Below are positions 23,816 to 30,994 of a DNA stretch of 36,383 nt, in pieces. Numbering within the stretch: the stretch's first letter is position 1; the number at the start of each line of letters is the position of its first letter. Both the position numbers and the translations under genes were made by a program. The DNA is from a virus. The stretch lies in IMG/VR virus record IMGVR_UViG_3300037502_001927, positions 1-36,383 of that record. The stretch is one strand, 5' to 3'. The notes beneath the pieces are model-generated. The model did not search any database. It worked only from the letters and a program-made list of their open reading frames with translations, and had not been told where the DNA came from.

Positions 23816-25969
23816 CTACTCGTCCTTAATCCAGACCCGAACACTCCTTCCGTTGGTGGATTTCGTGACCACGGTGCGCCAGCCGAGCACTCGCATCACT
23901 CGACCGACTCGTTTCTGCGCAATCTGGTCATGGCGACCGATCTCGATCTTGAGACAGTCGGACAAAATCTCCGATGTTGTAGGACGATTCTGATTCCACA
24001 GCCAACCTCCGATGACGGCTTCCCAGGAGTCAGAATCGCGCCTGGACTCGACTTCTTGGTTCTGCAAGTCCATCGGGACGTCCCACCATGAGCCGCCATC
24101 GTTGAACAGGTGGACGGCTTCAGCAAAGAGCTGGTCTCGGTTGTCACGCAGCCAATCGTGGTTTACGTTGCCGCAGCGAACGGGCCAGAACCGGCGTGCT
24201 CCAGTTTCGTCTCTCTGCCAGTCGTCGCGGTTCGTTGTGCAGGCCAGAACCGTTTGTCTAGGATGGTTTTCTGTGTTCCTTCCGTAGCTCTTTCTATATC
24301 TATCCATCTGGCAAGAGATAATGCCTTTGATGCGCTCGACTTCTGCTCGAGTAAATGAGTGCATCTCAGCAATCTCCACCAGCATGTGGCCTTTCAGGAC
24401 TTCGTAGAAGTCTTTGTGCGTCACGTTTTCATGACACTCTGTGAACCACTTGCCTCCGAGGATGCGCAGCGCGGTGGACTTGCCGGCGCCTTGCGTTCCC
24501 TCCAGAACAGGCACGGTATCAACCTTGCAGCCTGGCCGAAACACGCGGGCCACCATTGACATGACCCAGCAGCGGCCTACGGCGTCGGTGTAGGCGTTTT
24601 CTGGGGCTCCAAGGCCTTCTGACATCAAGTAGGACAGCCTGCGCACACCGTCCCAGGCAAGCGACTTCAGCCAGTCCTTGCACTCGTTGCGGGTGTCGTG
24701 GAAGGCGGCCACCACAGCAGCGTCGTGGCACGTTTGAAGGCCGATGCGCGTGAGTCCTACGTGGCGTTGCATGTAGAGCTGCAGCAGCACGTCGTCAGCG
24801 TCTTTCCATTGGCGTGCCTCGCCCTGCCATGTGGTCATGATCGTGTCCAGGAACTCGTCATACCAAATCTTGCCGCGCAGATTTGGATCAGACTCAATCG
24901 CCCTGACCACGTTGTCAAGGTTCATGATGGGCGTTCCGTTCGGCATCAGCACCAAATCAAGCTGTGGCCGAGCGTCGATCTCGCCTGTCTCTGGATCAAT
25001 TGATGGTGCGATGGAGACCGCTGCAGATGGTTTCGCAGGCTTGGCCTTCCACTTGGTCGCCCGCGGCTTCATCCATGCCTTGCATTCATCCCAGTTTGAA
25101 AAGTCCGCGTCTGCGGCATCCCACCCGTCCGGTTGGTCTGAGACATCCAGAATCTTGACCTCTGCCGCGCTGGCGGAGATGATCTGCGCCACGCGCTCCA
25201 TGGCCTTTCGGCCAGGCTCGTCTGCGTCCGGCCATAGCAGCACCTTGCGGCCTGCCAGCGGCGTCCAATCGGCCTTGTCGGCAGCCATGGCGCCCGCGGG
25301 CCATGTCACCACCACATAAGGGCCAGCGAAGCGTCGTGCAGCCTCTGCGCCCTTCTCGCCTTCGACCACCAGCACCGCAGCGCCAGAACGCTCTGCAATC
25401 TCTTGGAGACCGTACAGCGGCCGCGGCGCAGGCCACTGACCCATGCCCCACCGCTCACCGTCCCATGTCCACGGGATGATCTGTTTGCGCTCTCCTTGCG
25501 GGTCGTAGCGGGCCACGTAGCCCAGCACTTCGCCGTGTGCGTTGCGGTAGGTCCACCGTGCCGATGGCTTGCCGTAGCGAGTGTGCACACACAGGCATTC
25601 TGCAAAGTCTGCTGGCACTGGCGTGACCACGCGCCTGGCGGATTCTGGTGGCGGAACTGCGCGAGCGTGACCGTTCACGCGATGCTGTGGCTTGGTTTCG
25701 CCGCCGAGCTGTCGGTACGCATCACCCATTGGCAGCTCGTAGATCGCGGCGTACAGGCTCACCAAATCGCTTCCGTGGTCACCAGTTGCAAAGTCTGACC
25801 ACGCGCCTGTTGCGAGGTTGACCTTGAGGGACTGACCTGCAGCACCGCTGAGATCGCCAGCCACCCAGGAATTGCCGCGCTTGCGGCCGGCTGGGAGCCA
25901 GGATGCGAGGTGAGTTTCAGCCGATGCGAGGAGTTGACGGGCCAGGCCGTCGAAGTCGAGGCCGGCCAT
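23816..25969 (-). CDS. Replicative primase-helicase (Toprim + VapE/VirE-type ATPase)
   Basis: This encodes 717 residues. Residues ~45-75 (KVNLATGAWSDFATGDHGSD) resemble the N-terminal region of phage primases. The Toprim core follows: LVVEGEKGAEAA near 200-211 and LLWPDADEPGRKA near 245-256. The C-terminal ATPase has Walker A PVLEGTQGAGKST at about 487-499, KGHMLVEIAEMHSFTRAEVE, and CTTNRDDWQRDETGARRFWPV, all features of the VapE/VirE superfamily 3-like helicases. It would prime and unwind phage DNA. No zinc-ribbon cysteines are visible at the N-terminus. Two genes upstream encode a small protein and an SSB-like protein. Confidence 0.93.
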   Translation of the reverse strand: MAGLDFDGLARQLLASAETHLASWLPAGRKRGNSWVAGDLSGAAGQSLKVNLATGAWSDFATGDHGSDLVSLYAAIYELPMGDAYRQLGGETKPQHRVNGHARAVPPPESARRVVTPVPADFAECLCVHTRYGKPSARWTYRNAHGEVLGYVARYDPQGERKQIIPWTWDGERWGMGQWPAPRPLYGLQEIAERSGAAVLVVEGEKGAEAARRFAGPYVVVTWPAGAMAADKADWTPLAGRKVLLWPDADEPGRKAMERVAQIISASAAEVKILDVSDQPDGWDAADADFSNWDECKAWMKPRATKWKAKPAKPSAAVSIAPSIDPETGEIDARPQLDLVLMPNGTPIMNLDNVVRAIESDPNLRGKIWYDEFLDTIMTTWQGEARQWKDADDVLLQLYMQRHVGLTRIGLQTCHDAAVVAAFHDTRNECKDWLKSLAWDGVRRLSYLMSEGLGAPENAYTDAVGRCWVMSMVARVFRPGCKVDTVPVLEGTQGAGKSTALRILGGKWFTECHENVTHKDFYEVLKGHMLVEIAEMHSFTRAEVERIKGIISCQMDRYRKSYGRNTENHPRQTVLACTTNRDDWQRDETGARRFWPVRCGNVNHDWLRDNRDQLFAEAVHLFNDGGSWWDVPMDLQNQEVESRRDSDSWEAVIGGWLWNQNRPTTSEILSDCLKIEIGRHDQIAQKRVGRVMRVLGWRTVVTKSTNGRSVRVWIKDE

Positions 25970-26677: not shown

Positions 26678-26880
26678 GGTTCCTCTATGGTGATGCGGCT
26701 GCGCCGCTTGGTGATGGGCCTGCGGCCCAGGTGAAACAGGTGGCAGTGTGGGCAGTGGTAAATCTGCCGGCTGCGGCCACGGCGCGAGGAGCGTTCGCTT
26801 ACGCGCTGGGCCTGTGTGAATGTGGAGAATTGAACCTTACCTTCGCAGGCCGATGCTCGGTAGGTGTCGGATGGTGTCAT
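26674..26880 (-). CDS. Small zinc-ribbon-like protein
   Basis: This encodes 68 residues from the ATG at 26880, which overlaps the stop of the upstream frame (ATGA); an in-frame ATG at 26898 is also possible. It contains an isolated cysteine (SACEGKVQF) and a CPHCHLFHLG motif near the C-terminus, in a basic context (RSSRRGRSRQIYHCPHC). Similar small phage proteins are taken to bind zinc. The function is unknown. It precedes the SSB-like gene with an overlap of four bases. Confidence 0.75.
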   Translation of the reverse strand: MTPSDTYRASACEGKVQFSTFTQAQRVSERSSRRGRSRQIYHCPHCHLFHLGRRPITKRRSRITIEEP

Positions 26881-26978
26881 GCTGTCAGAAGCCGCCATGC
26901 GGTTGCTGCGCAGAGTGGGACTTGTCCGTTGCCAATGGCTTTAAGTCGGTCAACACGCGCCGTCACACCGTTGGCTAC
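26877..26978 (-). pseudogene. Detached C-terminal tail (motif X) of the cytosine methyltransferase
   Basis: Codons from GTA at 26978 read VANGVTARVDRLKAIGNGQV and on to PLCAATAWRLLTA. GNGQVP is motif X of cytosine-5 methyltransferases, and VDRLKAIGN is the usual lead-in. The rest of the enzyme ends at 27412, 433 bases upstream, in a different frame. In its present frame this tail forms the end of the 479-codon overlapping frame, so it could be translated as part of that polypeptide. The HNH stop codon lies at its first bases. Confidence 0.75.
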
Positions 26979-28316
26979 GCGAGGCGTGGCATCCTCCCAG
27001 CGACCATCTTGCCAATACGTTTTGCCGTGGTATGCCAGAAGTCGTGACAGTGCTTGCACAGCGTCTGGATGTTCTCCGGCTCGTTGTGCGTCTTGTCCTG
27101 GTTGATGTGATGCGCCTGTAATGCCCTCGCGTAGCCGCATGCCTCGCACTTCTTCTTCAAGTGCTTCCGCGCACGCCATGAATACCCGTGCTTCGTCAGG
27201 TCGGTTCTGGTATTCGCACAACTCAGCGAGCAGAAGCGCCGCTTCATGAACACCGACAGGTCTTCCAATCTCCCGCTGAATCTCTTGCGCTGCATCTCCG
27301 TTCCGCAGCATTCGCAGAACTTCGTTTCTTCCGGTTTCCGTTCCATCGTGCTTGCCCATAAGCCAAAAGCACATTTTAACATGGCTTATGGGTTGCAGCG
27401 ATGTCCAATCGTCAGGCCAGCCCATCAACTTTTCCACCCACGGCGGGTTCAGACTCCCACCAATCTGCTCGCTCAATGGCCGCGAGTTCTTGTCGTGCGT
27501 GGCTTGACTGGCCTTGCCGCTCCTGTAGTCGCGCGACAGGGGGGTGGCGAACTTCACCGCGTCCACCAGTTGCACCTGCTTGCCTGGAGCCGGTCGGCCA
27601 CTGCTGCCCCGAGAGTCCGCAGCCATTGGTGTCGGCCACATCGACACCGCCCCGGCCAATGTCGTCCCGCGTTTCGATTTGCCTGCCGCCTTGCCAATGC
27701 CACGGATCTGCACGTTGTCCTGAGTGGTTGGCGTAGGCCAGCGGGTCGGCGTGTTGATCATTTGCGCCAAGCTCACGCCGGTCATGTTCGGCGTGATCGT
27801 TCCACCGCGCTGGCCATCCGTTGCTGATGGTGTTGCCCACAAGCCAGAACCTGTCCCGCTGATGCGGCGCTCCAACGTCGGCAGCTCCCAGCACTGTCCA
27901 GCGGCAGTCATACCCGAGCGCGGCCAGATCACCGAGCACTCTTCCGAGTCCCCGAGTAAGGAGCGCTGGGCTGTTTTCCACGAAGACGTAGCGGGGTCGT
28001 ACCTCGCCAACGATGCGCGCCATGTGGGCCCACATGCCGCTGCGCTCTCCGTCAATGCCGGCGCCTTTGCCTGCAACGCTGATGTCCTGGCAGGGAAAGC
28101 CGCCAGATATGACGTCAACACGGCCGCGCCATGATCGTCCATCAAAGGTGCGAACGTCATCCCAAACCGGGAAGGGCGGGAGAAGGCCGTCATTCTGTCT
28201 GGCGGCAAGTACGCTTGCGGCGTAGGGCTCCCACTCAACGGCGCAGATGGTGCGCCATCCGAGCAGCCCCCCCCCGAGAATGCCTCCACCAGCGCCCGCG
28301 AATAAAGCCAGCTCAT
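26877..28316 (-). CDS. 479-codon frame overlapping the cytosine methyltransferase (possible second subunit)
   Basis: This frame starts at an ATG (28316), eight bases after GGAGG, and runs +1 to the methyltransferase over its whole length, then through the HNH insertion, ending in the methyltransferase motif X tail. It begins MSWLYSRALVEAF and contains SLNPPWVEKLMGWPDDWTSL; I recall database proteins of this type. They may themselves be frame-shifted readings of methyltransferases. Split cytosine methyltransferases with one subunit in an alternative frame (M.EcoHK31I) are known, so a real product is possible. It could equally be a chance open frame in GC-rich DNA. Confidence 0.4.
   Translation of the reverse strand: MSWLYSRALVEAFSGGGCSDGAPSAPLSGSPTPQAYLPPDRMTAFSRPSRFGMTFAPLMDDHGAAVLTSYLAAFPARTSALQAKAPALTESAAACGPTWRASLARYDPATSSWKTAQRSLLGDSEECSVIWPRSGMTAAGQCWELPTLERRISGTGSGLWATPSATDGQRGGTITPNMTGVSLAQMINTPTRWPTPTTQDNVQIRGIGKAAGKSKRGTTLAGAVSMWPTPMAADSRGSSGRPAPGKQVQLVDAVKFATPLSRDYRSGKASQATHDKNSRPLSEQIGGSLNPPWVEKLMGWPDDWTSLQPISHVKMCFWLMGKHDGTETGRNEVLRMLRNGDAAQEIQREIGRPVGVHEAALLLAELCEYQNRPDEARVFMACAEALEEEVRGMRLREGITGASHQPGQDAQRAGEHPDAVQALSRLLAYHGKTYWQDGRWEDATPRVANGVTARVDRLKAIGNGQVPLCAATAWRLLTA
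26975..27346 (-). CDS. HNH endonuclease inserted in the methyltransferase gene
   Basis: This encodes 123 residues from the ATG at 27346; a longer start at 27382 is possible, and neither has a good ribosome-binding site. The N-terminal zinc site is FCECCGTEMQRKR with FCSLSCANTRTD. The C-terminal HNH core is CEACGY, LQAHHINQDKTHNEPENIQT, LCKHCHDFWH. All core residues are present, so the enzyme should be active. It fits almost exactly in the 433 bases that separate the methyltransferase body from its motif X tail, as a mobile homing-type gene would. Confidence 0.85.
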   Translation of the reverse strand: MERKPEETKFCECCGTEMQRKRFSGRLEDLSVFMKRRFCSLSCANTRTDLTKHGYSWRARKHLKKKCEACGYARALQAHHINQDKTHNEPENIQTLCKHCHDFWHTTAKRIGKMVAGRMPRLA

Positions 28317-28320
28317 TCAC
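27412..28320 (-). CDS. DNA (cytosine-5) methyltransferase, truncated before motif X
   Basis: This encodes 302 residues from a GTG at 28320 that overlaps the VRR-NUC stop. Motif I is LFAGAGGGILGG, motif IV GGFPCQDIS (catalytic Cys77), motif VI YVFVENSP and motif VIII HQRDRFWLVG. The target-recognition region carries degenerate repeats (LAYANHSGQRAD, DVADTNGCGLSG). The frame ends EPAVGGKVDGLA where the family continues to motif X; that tail is displaced by the HNH insertion. It may be inactive alone or need the tail in trans. It would otherwise methylate phage DNA against restriction. Confidence 0.88.
   Translation of the reverse strand: MNELALFAGAGGGILGGGLLGWRTICAVEWEPYAASVLAARQNDGLLPPFPVWDDVRTFDGRSWRGRVDVISGGFPCQDISVAGKGAGIDGERSGMWAHMARIVGEVRPRYVFVENSPALLTRGLGRVLGDLAALGYDCRWTVLGAADVGAPHQRDRFWLVGNTISNGWPARWNDHAEHDRRELGANDQHADPLAYANHSGQRADPWHWQGGRQIETRDDIGRGGVDVADTNGCGLSGQQWPTGSRQAGATGGRGEVRHPPVARLQERQGQSSHARQELAAIERADWWESEPAVGGKVDGLA
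28267..28275 (-). repeat. G9 homopolymer in methyltransferase motif I
   Basis: Nine consecutive G on the coding strand encode three glycines next to motif I. Slippage here would swap between the methyltransferase frame and the overlapping 479-codon frame. It is also where a sequencing length error would be most likely. Confidence 0.8.
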
Positions 28321-28796
28321 GCGGCCTCCAGCAACGCCTGCGCATCCTCAACCGACCGGCAAACTCCGGCCACGCCGCCCGCCTGGCGAATCGTGGCGAG
28401 GAACTCTTCCTGGCCTGGACGCATGCGGCCGGTGGAGGACTTGACCTCAATGGCCAACGTGCGGCCGTCCTTGAGCACGCCCGTGATGTCGCTCATACCT
28501 TTGGCCGTGTTCGCCCTGATGTACCGCACAGACCCGTCGCGGTTGCGCTCCTGGAACGTGCCCGAGTTCTGCCGCCAGCACTTGGCGACCTTCGGGTGCC
28601 GCTTCAGCAGCGCCATGACGGCCTTGAGAATCTGCGCCTCTGTAGGCTGGCCTGACGCCTTCCTGGGCCCACGCTTGGCCGGCTCAGGCGGGATGTCCAA
28701 CAACACGCGGGGCTTGCCGCTGATGGCGGCATAGCGATCCATGGTCGCCTGATTGCGCAGCATCTTCTCGCGCAGGGTTTCGCGGCCTCTGGTCAT
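28317..28796 (-). CDS. VRR-NUC domain nuclease
   Basis: This encodes 159 residues from the ATG at 28796, which overlaps the helicase-methyltransferase stop. The C-terminal ~90 residues form a VRR-NUC (PD-(D/E)XK) domain: EAQILKAVMALLKRHPKVAK, then GMSDITGVLKDG with the active-site Asp, LAIEVKSSTGRM with the Glu-x-Lys, and PGQEEFLATIRQAGGVAGV. Such phage nucleases are linked to branched-DNA processing. The N-terminus is basic. It lies between the helicase fusion and the cytosine methyltransferase, each coupled by overlap. Confidence 0.9.
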   Translation of the reverse strand: MTRGRETLREKMLRNQATMDRYAAISGKPRVLLDIPPEPAKRGPRKASGQPTEAQILKAVMALLKRHPKVAKCWRQNSGTFQERNRDGSVRYIRANTAKGMSDITGVLKDGRTLAIEVKSSTGRMRPGQEEFLATIRQAGGVAGVCRSVEDAQALLEAA

Positions 28797-30994
28797 GCTG
28801 CAAAAAGCCCGCGCTGCTCGCGCGTGGCGTCGGTGATGTTCTCCACGGCCAGCTCCCAATACTGCGGCTTCAGTTCAGTGCCAACAAACCTGCGGCCCAT
28901 CTTCACTGCGCAGTAGCCCTCAGAACCAATTCCAGTGAACGGGCTGAAGATCAAGTCTCCGCGATTGGTCCACAGATGAATGCACCGCTCGATGACGTCG
29001 AGCTGCAGCGGGCACATATGCTTTTCGTCGTTCTCATCGCGGGCTGGCAGTTTGTTCAGCGTGCGCCCTTGGTCAATGTCGCTCCAAATCGGGCTGGCGT
29101 ACTTCTGCCACATCATGACGGGCAGATCGTCGCCATGCGTCACCCGAGGCTCTGCGTCTCCAGGCTTGCGCATCGTCACCACGTAGTCGGGCAGGCCCAT
29201 GCGCGACATGCTGGCGTTCTCGCGGATGGTCTTGTGCAGCAGGCCCAGCGCCTTGGTGCGCTGCATGGCGACTACGGGGTCTTTCCAGATGCACACCTCT
29301 GAATGGTAGATGAAGCCGGCATCCTGGAATGCCCGGATCAGATCGCCCCGGAAGTCGCGCAGCCCGATGAACCCTTGCCGCATCTTGGTGGTCGGCAGGT
29401 TCATGCAGTGGAAGCTGACATTGCGCCCAGGCTTGATGATGCGGAACAGTTCGCCGATCAGGTAACGCAGCTGGGCCACGAACTCCGCATCGTCGCGGCA
29501 GTTGCCCATGTCGTGGTCGCTGTTGGAATAGACGAACAGATCAGCGAACGGGGGCGAGAACACTGAGTAGTCGATGCTGTTGTCTGCCATGCGCCGGGTC
29601 CACTTTACGCAGTCCCCAAGATGCACGGTGAACCCGTCGCCTTGGTGCGTGTCCTCGCGGTATTCGTCCACAATGTTTTGCTGCCCAGACAGTTCATGGT
29701 TCATGATGTCTTTCATGTGCTCGATCATGTTCGCGCTCATTTCGTGGTGCTGCTCTTCTTTGCGTTTGAGGTTCAGCAGAATCTGGCCTTCGTTCTCGGC
29801 AGTGAACAGATGCACCTGCACGCTGCGCTTCTGGCCGAACCGATGGCATCGGCGCACGGCCTGGTAGAACTTCTCGAATGAGTCATCCAGCCCGACGAAC
29901 GCCATGCGAGCGCAGTGCTGCCAGTTCATGCCGAAGCCGCAAATCTTGGGCTTGCTGATGAGAACGCGCAGACTGCCACGGCTGAAGGCCATCATCTGCT
30001 CGGCCTTGTATTCGGCGCTGTCTGACCCTTGCACATTGATACTGCCGGGAATCAGGCTCTGCAGCAGTTCGGCCTCGTCGTTCAGATGGCACCAGATCAG
30101 CCACGGCTCAGACGATTCCGAATTGACCACATTGGCCAGCGCCCTGCATCGCTGCTCAATGCTTGCGCGCTGCGCTTGACGGCGCTCTGTAAGGGTCTGC
30201 GCAGGCCGGCTGAATAGGTCGTTGCCTAGCGGATCTGTCTCGACCACATGCTCAAGGTATTGCGGGGCCGGCAGCACGTACCGCGAACCGTCGAATCCGA
30301 GGTCGGAAGGATTGCGCAGCACCACGGCCCACGTTCCCATCCACTCCCAGAACTTTGATGCACCCCAGCCCTTCAGGCGCCAGGTGCCGGTGTCTCCGGT
30401 GTCGTTCACAAAGTACGTGGCCAGCATCTCGGTGCGCGTCATCACGCCGAGAAACTCGCACTGGTTGCCCAGCTCCTCAAAATCGTTCGGGCTTGGCGTG
30501 GCCGTGCAGCTCAGGCGGTACGGAATGCCCTGCGCTGACTCAATGATGCGCGTGCGGGTCTTGCCATCGTGCGCCTTGAGGATGCTGGACTCGTCCAGCA
30601 CAAGCCCATGCAAGCCGCCGAAGTCGATGGCATCCATGCGCTCGTAGTTCGTGATCCAGACGCCAGGAGCATCCGGTGAGCCACCGTGCGGAACCCGCCG
30701 CACCGTGATGCCGAACGTGTAGCCCTGCTCAATGGTCTGCTCTGACACGGCCAGCGGTGCCAGGATCAGCACCGCGCCGTTCGTGTGCGATGCCACCTCG
30801 TCAGCCCATGACAGTTGCATCAGGGTCTTGCCCAGCCCGGTGTCCGCAAAGATCGCCGCACGGCCGCGGCGCACGGCCCATGAGACGATGGCGTGCTGGA
30901 AGTCGAACAGATGTTCGTTTAGCCTTCCCGGATGATGGCCAGTGGCCACCTCGGCGCGGCGCTTGCCGGCCACGAAGTCCTCATAGTTTTGCAC
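28793..30994 (-). CDS. SNF2-type helicase fused to a DNA N6/N4 methyltransferase
   Basis: This encodes 733 residues from a GTG at 30994 with a strong AAAGGAG site. Helicase motifs: Walker A FADTGLGKTLM (~49-59), LVLDESSILK (~131-140), SCTATP (~162-167) and FYQAVRRCHRFGQKR (~376-390). The methyltransferase half has SPPF (~480-483) and later FSPFTGIGSEGYCAVKMGRRFVGTE (~683-707), the order of beta-class amino-methyltransferases. Both halves look intact. The fusion suggests a translocating modifier of phage DNA, most simply anti-restriction, though recombination or replication roles are possible. Confidence 0.92.
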   Translation of the reverse strand: MQNYEDFVAGKRRAEVATGHHPGRLNEHLFDFQHAIVSWAVRRGRAAIFADTGLGKTLMQLSWADEVASHTNGAVLILAPLAVSEQTIEQGYTFGITVRRVPHGGSPDAPGVWITNYERMDAIDFGGLHGLVLDESSILKAHDGKTRTRIIESAQGIPYRLSCTATPSPNDFEELGNQCEFLGVMTRTEMLATYFVNDTGDTGTWRLKGWGASKFWEWMGTWAVVLRNPSDLGFDGSRYVLPAPQYLEHVVETDPLGNDLFSRPAQTLTERRQAQRASIEQRCRALANVVNSESSEPWLIWCHLNDEAELLQSLIPGSINVQGSDSAEYKAEQMMAFSRGSLRVLISKPKICGFGMNWQHCARMAFVGLDDSFEKFYQAVRRCHRFGQKRSVQVHLFTAENEGQILLNLKRKEEQHHEMSANMIEHMKDIMNHELSGQQNIVDEYREDTHQGDGFTVHLGDCVKWTRRMADNSIDYSVFSPPFADLFVYSNSDHDMGNCRDDAEFVAQLRYLIGELFRIIKPGRNVSFHCMNLPTTKMRQGFIGLRDFRGDLIRAFQDAGFIYHSEVCIWKDPVVAMQRTKALGLLHKTIRENASMSRMGLPDYVVTMRKPGDAEPRVTHGDDLPVMMWQKYASPIWSDIDQGRTLNKLPARDENDEKHMCPLQLDVIERCIHLWTNRGDLIFSPFTGIGSEGYCAVKMGRRFVGTELKPQYWELAVENITDATREQRGLFAA

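Follow-up and report, generated by a model that had tools for sequence, protein, structure and literature searches.

Does a 479-codon reading frame that overprints an entire cytosine methyltransferase gene encode a protein, and if so, what does that protein contribute to the enzyme? The question is raised by the IMG/VR virus record IMGVR_UViG_3300037502_001927, in which a stretch of 36,383 nucleotides (nt), hereafter the window, was analysed. All features of the locus lie on the minus strand. The methyltransferase frame is referred to as alpha, and the overprinting +1 frame (frame 2) as beta:

27412..28320 (-): alpha, the C5-methyltransferase open reading frame (ORF), GTG start, 302 codons, motifs I-VIII
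26877..28316 (-): beta, the overprinting frame 2, ATG to stop, 479 codons, +1 relative to alpha
28325..28329 (-): GGAGG, Shine-Dalgarno-like, 4 nt from the alpha GTG and 8 nt from the beta ATG
26895..26957 (-): motif X RVDRLKAIGNGQVPLCAATAW, read here in beta, whereas uninserted relatives have it in alpha

As an earlier note on this DNA had described, frame 2 runs over the whole methyltransferase gene minus its first 4 nt (an overlap of 905 nt), passes through the region of an HNH endonuclease ORF and terminates in a displaced motif X; the spacing that the note gave between GGAGG and the two starts is also present in the sequence. In brief, the beta product comprises WPTP repeats resembling those of a target-recognition region, motif IX, an insert-encoded segment and motif X. 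Judging from these features and from its relatives, the locus very probably encodes a heterodimeric, fully overprinted C5-methyltransferase that was re-split by a homing endonuclease cassette. We infer that the two polypeptides are produced together and form an active enzyme, which would protect the phage DNA.

Openness of frame 2 and selection on it

In the window by itself, the openness of frame 2 is mildly unusual and constitutes weak evidence: synonymous shuffles of the methyltransferase average 4.5 stops, and 1.3% of them are as stop-poor as the observed frame (P ~0.013). The relatives decide the matter. To avoid bias, they were gathered by the alpha frame only, as 80 viral contigs and 80 bacterial-genome contigs, the latter set including Pseudomonas, Acinetobacter, Nitrosomonas, Akkermansia, Anaerolineales, Spirochaetia and others. 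Stop codons among relatives with an intact methyltransferase, which the earlier note had named as the sign of a frame open by chance, are absent from frame 2 in all 80 bacterial-genome loci and, up to the end region, in 75 of the 80 viral loci. Over the two sets together, 155 of 160 loci have an open frame 2, in genes with a GC content of 47-68%. For the 73 bacterial-genome loci that were measured, no interior frame-2 stop was observed against 249 expected by shuffling.

Constraint in the overlap, which the earlier note had proposed to measure, was assessed with a codon-position test, in which alpha position 1 is frame-2 position 3 and alpha-nonsynonymous changes are split according to whether they are silent in frame 2; substitutions were counted in matched pairs with unchanged neighbours. 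Frame 2 proved to be under purifying selection, with an omega of 0.28-0.31 (z -6.6) in the conserved body and 0-0.12 (z -9.1) in the variable region, whereas the same test on flanking non-overlapping genes gave 1.2-1.4 (z +2.0) and no purifying signal. Alpha is strongly constrained in the body (omega 0.02-0.09), but its variable region shows little constraint (0.52 for transversions, z -2.4). This pattern indicates that both frames encode the body, and that it is mainly frame 2 that encodes the variable region. The flanking genes, which offer more sites, were used as the control because a small single-chain control had also displayed a deficit in the first version of the test (3 observed versus 9.2 expected). 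Two other comparisons, one of how often homologues use the same codon and one of pairwise similarity in frame 2 under codon shuffling, likewise produced signals but were dropped in favour of the codon-position test, since single-chain controls scored as well and the comparisons are therefore confounded by relatedness.

Frame 2 is, as read from its conservation across relatives, evidently a real gene. The alternative raised by the earlier note, that the lack of stops is a chance effect of GC-rich DNA and only alpha is translated, has the modest window-only P in its favour, but is contradicted by the absence of all 249 expected stops, by openness across the whole range of GC content and by selection that the flanking genes lack, and is rejected with practically no probability left to it.

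Division of the motifs between alpha and beta

Alpha matches PF00145 over residues 4-169 (E 1e-34), and its profile aligns with residues 15-179 of M.HhaI (E 7e-22). With motifs I, IV (FPCQ), VI (ENS) and VIII located, alpha has both the fold and the motifs of a C5-methyltransferase. Motifs IX and X were looked for in the window's alpha and neither is there; both were found, solely in beta. The alpha motifs, located in the sequence and supported by the alpha alignment, are as follows:

28270..28305 (-): motif I LFAGAGGGILGG, conserved in alpha alignment A1
28078..28104 (-): motif IV GGFPCQDIS, with the catalytic Cys
27967..27987 (-): motif VI VFVENSP
27835..27873 (-): motif VIII GAPHQRDRFWLVG

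Three loci have an in-frame stop in alpha, with the overlapping beta still open: L196 (Microvirga sp.), where the stop falls at the Q of FPCQ, L193 and L188.

Beta matches phrog_1008 'DNA methyltransferase' (E 4.8e-37), a label that is silent on the overlap and on the missing catalytic motifs. Its recognizable elements are:

27525..27839 (-): variable region, the putative target-recognition region, by its repeats, its position and a frame-2 omega of 0-0.12
27813-27839, 27714-27740, 27612-27638 and 27525-27551 (-): four (W/F)(A/P)TPxxxD repeats in the beta frame
27405..27452 (-): motif IX LNPPWVEKLMGWPDDW, a cassette-brought copy from GGA at 27435 onward

Motif IX follows the pattern E.LMGWP..W, in which E, M, P and W are invariant across the beta alignments, and the segment shares 48-55% identity with its counterpart in single-chain enzymes. 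By pattern, it was found in frame 2 in 59 of the 80 bacterial-genome loci and in alpha in none of them; motif X was found in alpha in 68. In the uninserted relatives, alpha has motifs I-VIII and X, and beta has IX. The Gordonia phage Inspectinfecti has a single-chain methyltransferase in which the same PTP repeats, IX and X come after motif VIII, and in some actinophages (Streptomyces phages Samy and Heather, Mycobacterium phage SheaKeira) the halves are consecutive genes. Given motif IX in frame 2, the order of the PTP repeats in Inspectinfecti and the consecutive actinophage genes, beta is best regarded as the half of the enzyme that recognizes the target. Searches of Pfam and NCBIfam returned no family for beta, and a Foldseek search with beta gave no matches. 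Pfam TPR matches of frame 2 were weak, below cut-off and mostly within the insert, and were discarded.

Annotators have chosen differently between the frames: frame 2 instead of alpha is annotated in phPA-G and Vibrio phage 1.236, alpha in other phages, and both frames in Diva ('g49 internal gene'). A different C5-methyltransferase family, in L006 (Escherichia phage ESSI2_ev129) and L142-L145, likewise has HNH insertions and an overlapping frame that is open, contains WPTP repeats and ends in LNPxxxxWLMGLP; overprinting may be a general feature of phage C5-methyltransferases.

Programmed +1 ribosomal frameshifting could instead make a single chain with motifs I-X by continuing alpha in the downstream beta frame, with the beta start left unused. 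A single shift would complete the chain in the inserted lineage and in actinophages with alpha ending past motif VIII, and the Inspectinfecti enzyme demonstrates that single chains of this motif order exist. Such a shift would, however, leave untranslated the 150 codons before motif VIII, a stretch over which frame 2 stays open and is subject to purifying selection, and in 135 of 153 loci the beta ATG has the same +4 position relative to aligned alpha residue 1. Moreover, the uninserted relatives have IX in beta and X in alpha, so that a single shift yields no complete enzyme. We therefore regard frameshifting as unlikely.

Beta might also be a real overprinted protein but not a methyltransferase subunit, for example a regulator or an anti-restriction protein, an idea that would suit its first 150 residues, which have no known-domain match. 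It is improbable in view of the motif IX in beta, which none of the 80 bacterial-genome alphas contains by pattern, of the additional motif X in inserted loci, and of the PTP repeats, which are placed where the single-chain relative has its target-recognition region.

The HNH cassette and the frame rotation

How motif X came to be read in the beta frame was addressed by comparing inserted and uninserted relatives, which delimits an insertion with the following features:

26982..27435 (-): HNH cassette, 454 nt (1 mod 3), within the motif IX codons, from an alignment of uninserted L014 and L018 with inserted L009-L012
26975..27382 (-): third-frame HNH endonuclease ORF of 135 aa, which may start internally at Met13 (PF01844, E 1e-4; phrog_1271, E 1.8e-11)
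27355..27392 (-): 11-bp inverted repeat CCCATAAGCCA...TGGCTTATGGG enclosing the first HNH ATG (RNA fold z -3.7)

The motif IX site reads GTGGGTCGAGTGGCTGATGGGGTGGCCGCTCGGGTGGACCGACTTAAAG in the uninserted relatives, whereas in the window GTGGGT is followed by 454 additional nt before the host sequence resumes as CGCGTAGCC. The cassette opens with a recoded, replacement motif IX, followed by HNH. Because its length is 1 mod 3, the upstream frame 2 is joined to the downstream alpha frame, i.e. to motif X. From this alignment, the HNH cassette is evidently what caused the shift of X from alpha to beta.

The window-type cassette is present in ~17 further contigs, in all of which beta is open through it and ends in X, and alpha is without X. 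Although 3-6.5 stops per sequence are expected by the null for beta inside the cassette, none occurs in the 17 window-type sequences or in L043. A divergent HNH in L043/L047 occupies the same site with the same rotation. The displaced old beta tail can still be read in L010 and L012 (= L124, L125), where it is fused to HNH, and is gone in the window; it has decayed in most inserted loci, while X stayed conserved. For the insert-encoded beta segment, AlphaFold predicts helices (pLDDT, predicted local distance difference test, ~80). The 25 HNH relatives lie nearly all within methyltransferase genes, and the patchy distribution of the insertion (uninserted L013, L014 and L048 versus inserted L009-L012 and L123-L140) suggests that the HNH protein drives homing. 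A group I or II intron was rejected, as no Rfam match was obtained in the window region (permissive search) or in five inserted loci. The inverted repeat could form a hairpin that hides the HNH start, as reported for MobE, a homing endonuclease considered below; a covariation test gave this hairpin no support.

Some loci have related arrangements. The recoded motif IX and a WEDG segment persist in L092 and L018/L051, in which HNH is gone and X is back in alpha; these are possible cassette-loss scars. In L233, a Spirochaetia metagenome-assembled genome, alpha stops just past motif VIII and both IX and X are in beta with no HNH insert, so a split with IX and X in beta arose or persisted without the cassette too. 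In L149 (1802-2257), an endonuclease is annotated in a frame overlapping the Inspectinfecti single-chain methyltransferase, another hidden homing element.

In the mechanism that we propose, alpha (302 aa) would be the catalytic half with motifs I-VIII, and beta, starting 4 nt downstream, probably via the Shine-Dalgarno site of alpha, would be read in the +1 frame over the entire alpha gene and provide the target-recognition region and motif IX. Ancestrally, as in the relatives, alpha would also have ended with motif X. The 454-nt cassette would then have entered the motif IX codons, supplying the recoded motif IX, and in the rotated frame beta would consist of the target-recognition region, IX, a cassette-encoded linker and X. 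With the frames rejoined in this way, alpha would end at a stop inside the cassette. We also lean, with less assurance, towards a broader picture in which the enzyme is widespread in phages and prophages and its subunits were overprinted long ago, one frame providing catalysis and the other DNA recognition; HNH cassettes would repeatedly enter the shared motif IX and swap the owner of motif X by their length, and the cassette DNA would code for both the endonuclease and a new helical beta segment.

Several observations count against an overprinted two-subunit enzyme. AlphaFold models of beta alone, with and without the insert, are of low confidence (mean pLDDT 45-48), and no solved relative of beta was found, so that the assignment of the target-recognition region rests on position, repeats, motif IX and selection. 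Frame 2 has a point stop, with alpha intact, in two viral loci (L096, L120), and the frames are fused by indels in three others (L079, L113, L114). Finally, residue-level constraint on beta within the cassette is weak, and it is mainly openness that is kept. This weak constraint would also be expected if the methyltransferase of the inserted lineage were dead, the beta-X fusion a relic and the HNH protein all that matters. Such a loss is very improbable, given that beta is stop-free through the cassette, that X and the alpha body are intact, and that X was conserved while the old beta tail decayed in most loci.

The fusing indels were seen in six loci altogether (L079, L113, L114, L072, L073 and L126), where single indels, some apparently near G-runs, join alpha to the beta C-terminus or vice versa; they may reflect sequencing error or phase variation.

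Comparison with known systems and neighbouring genes

It is uncommon for the genes of two functional proteins to overlap over a long stretch of the same strand. Overprinted proteins that are halves of one enzyme are rarer still, and M.EcoHK31I is the sole case known to us; Lee et al. are said to have described in 1995 that its small chain is likewise read from an overlapping frame. The genes of M.AquI are consecutive and are not known to be overprinted, unlike the window's frames with their 905-nt overlap.

Both are two-chain C5-methyltransferases: according to one account, M.EcoHK31I (YGGCCR) has motifs I-VIII and X in alpha and IX in beta, and M.AquI (CYCGRG) has I-VIII in alpha and IX-X in beta (PMC3404938). 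The resemblance to M.EcoHK31I that the earlier note had drawn holds for the uninserted relatives, whose partition (X in alpha, IX in beta) is the same as described for that enzyme. It fails for the window, which has X in beta and thus a motif split identical to that of M.AquI. The window's beta also begins 4 nt after alpha and spans the entire gene, unlike M.EcoHK31I. PMC3404938 assigns the target-recognition region of M.EcoHK31I to alpha, whereas here the selection pattern places that region in beta. The window also has an HNH cassette, and none is reported for M.AquI in the text consulted.

Two systems resemble the insertion itself. The ShiLan domain is an HNH hidden in another frame of an actinophage methylase, the host frame being stop-free (PMC11855218). 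It shares with the window an out-of-frame HNH, a host frame open through the insert and the lack of an intron or intein signature. Its host, however, is a single-frame gene in which reading continues in that frame, whereas the window's host already had two frames, and the window's insert, unlike ShiLan, substitutes a new motif IX and places motif X in the other protein. The second system is MobE, an HNH homing endonuclease that lies in nrdA of phage Aeh1 and splits this enzyme gene into two working chains (PMC2988022); it divides one frame, whereas the window's cassette re-partitions an overlapping frame pair and is itself read through. A literature search, thin for subscription papers, returned no account of the overprinted family or of a cassette re-partitioning motifs between overprinted subunits.

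Both frames are kept open in at least 155 loci, in phages and in bacteria of several phyla, and alpha is therefore routinely annotated as a complete methyltransferase despite having no motif IX. If beta is indeed the second subunit, alpha expressed alone would fail, and methylome predictions would mislead. A selfish HNH cassette could then redistribute the parts of an enzyme over two chains, with the enzyme apparently surviving, and the origin of split methyltransferases would become directly testable.

Other genes of the window include the following:

28320-28859: VRR-NUC gene, adjoining the SNF2-like/methylase fusion
28796-30994: SNF2-like helicase fused to an N6/N4 DNA methylase (PF01555, PF00271)
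23816-25969: VapE-like primase
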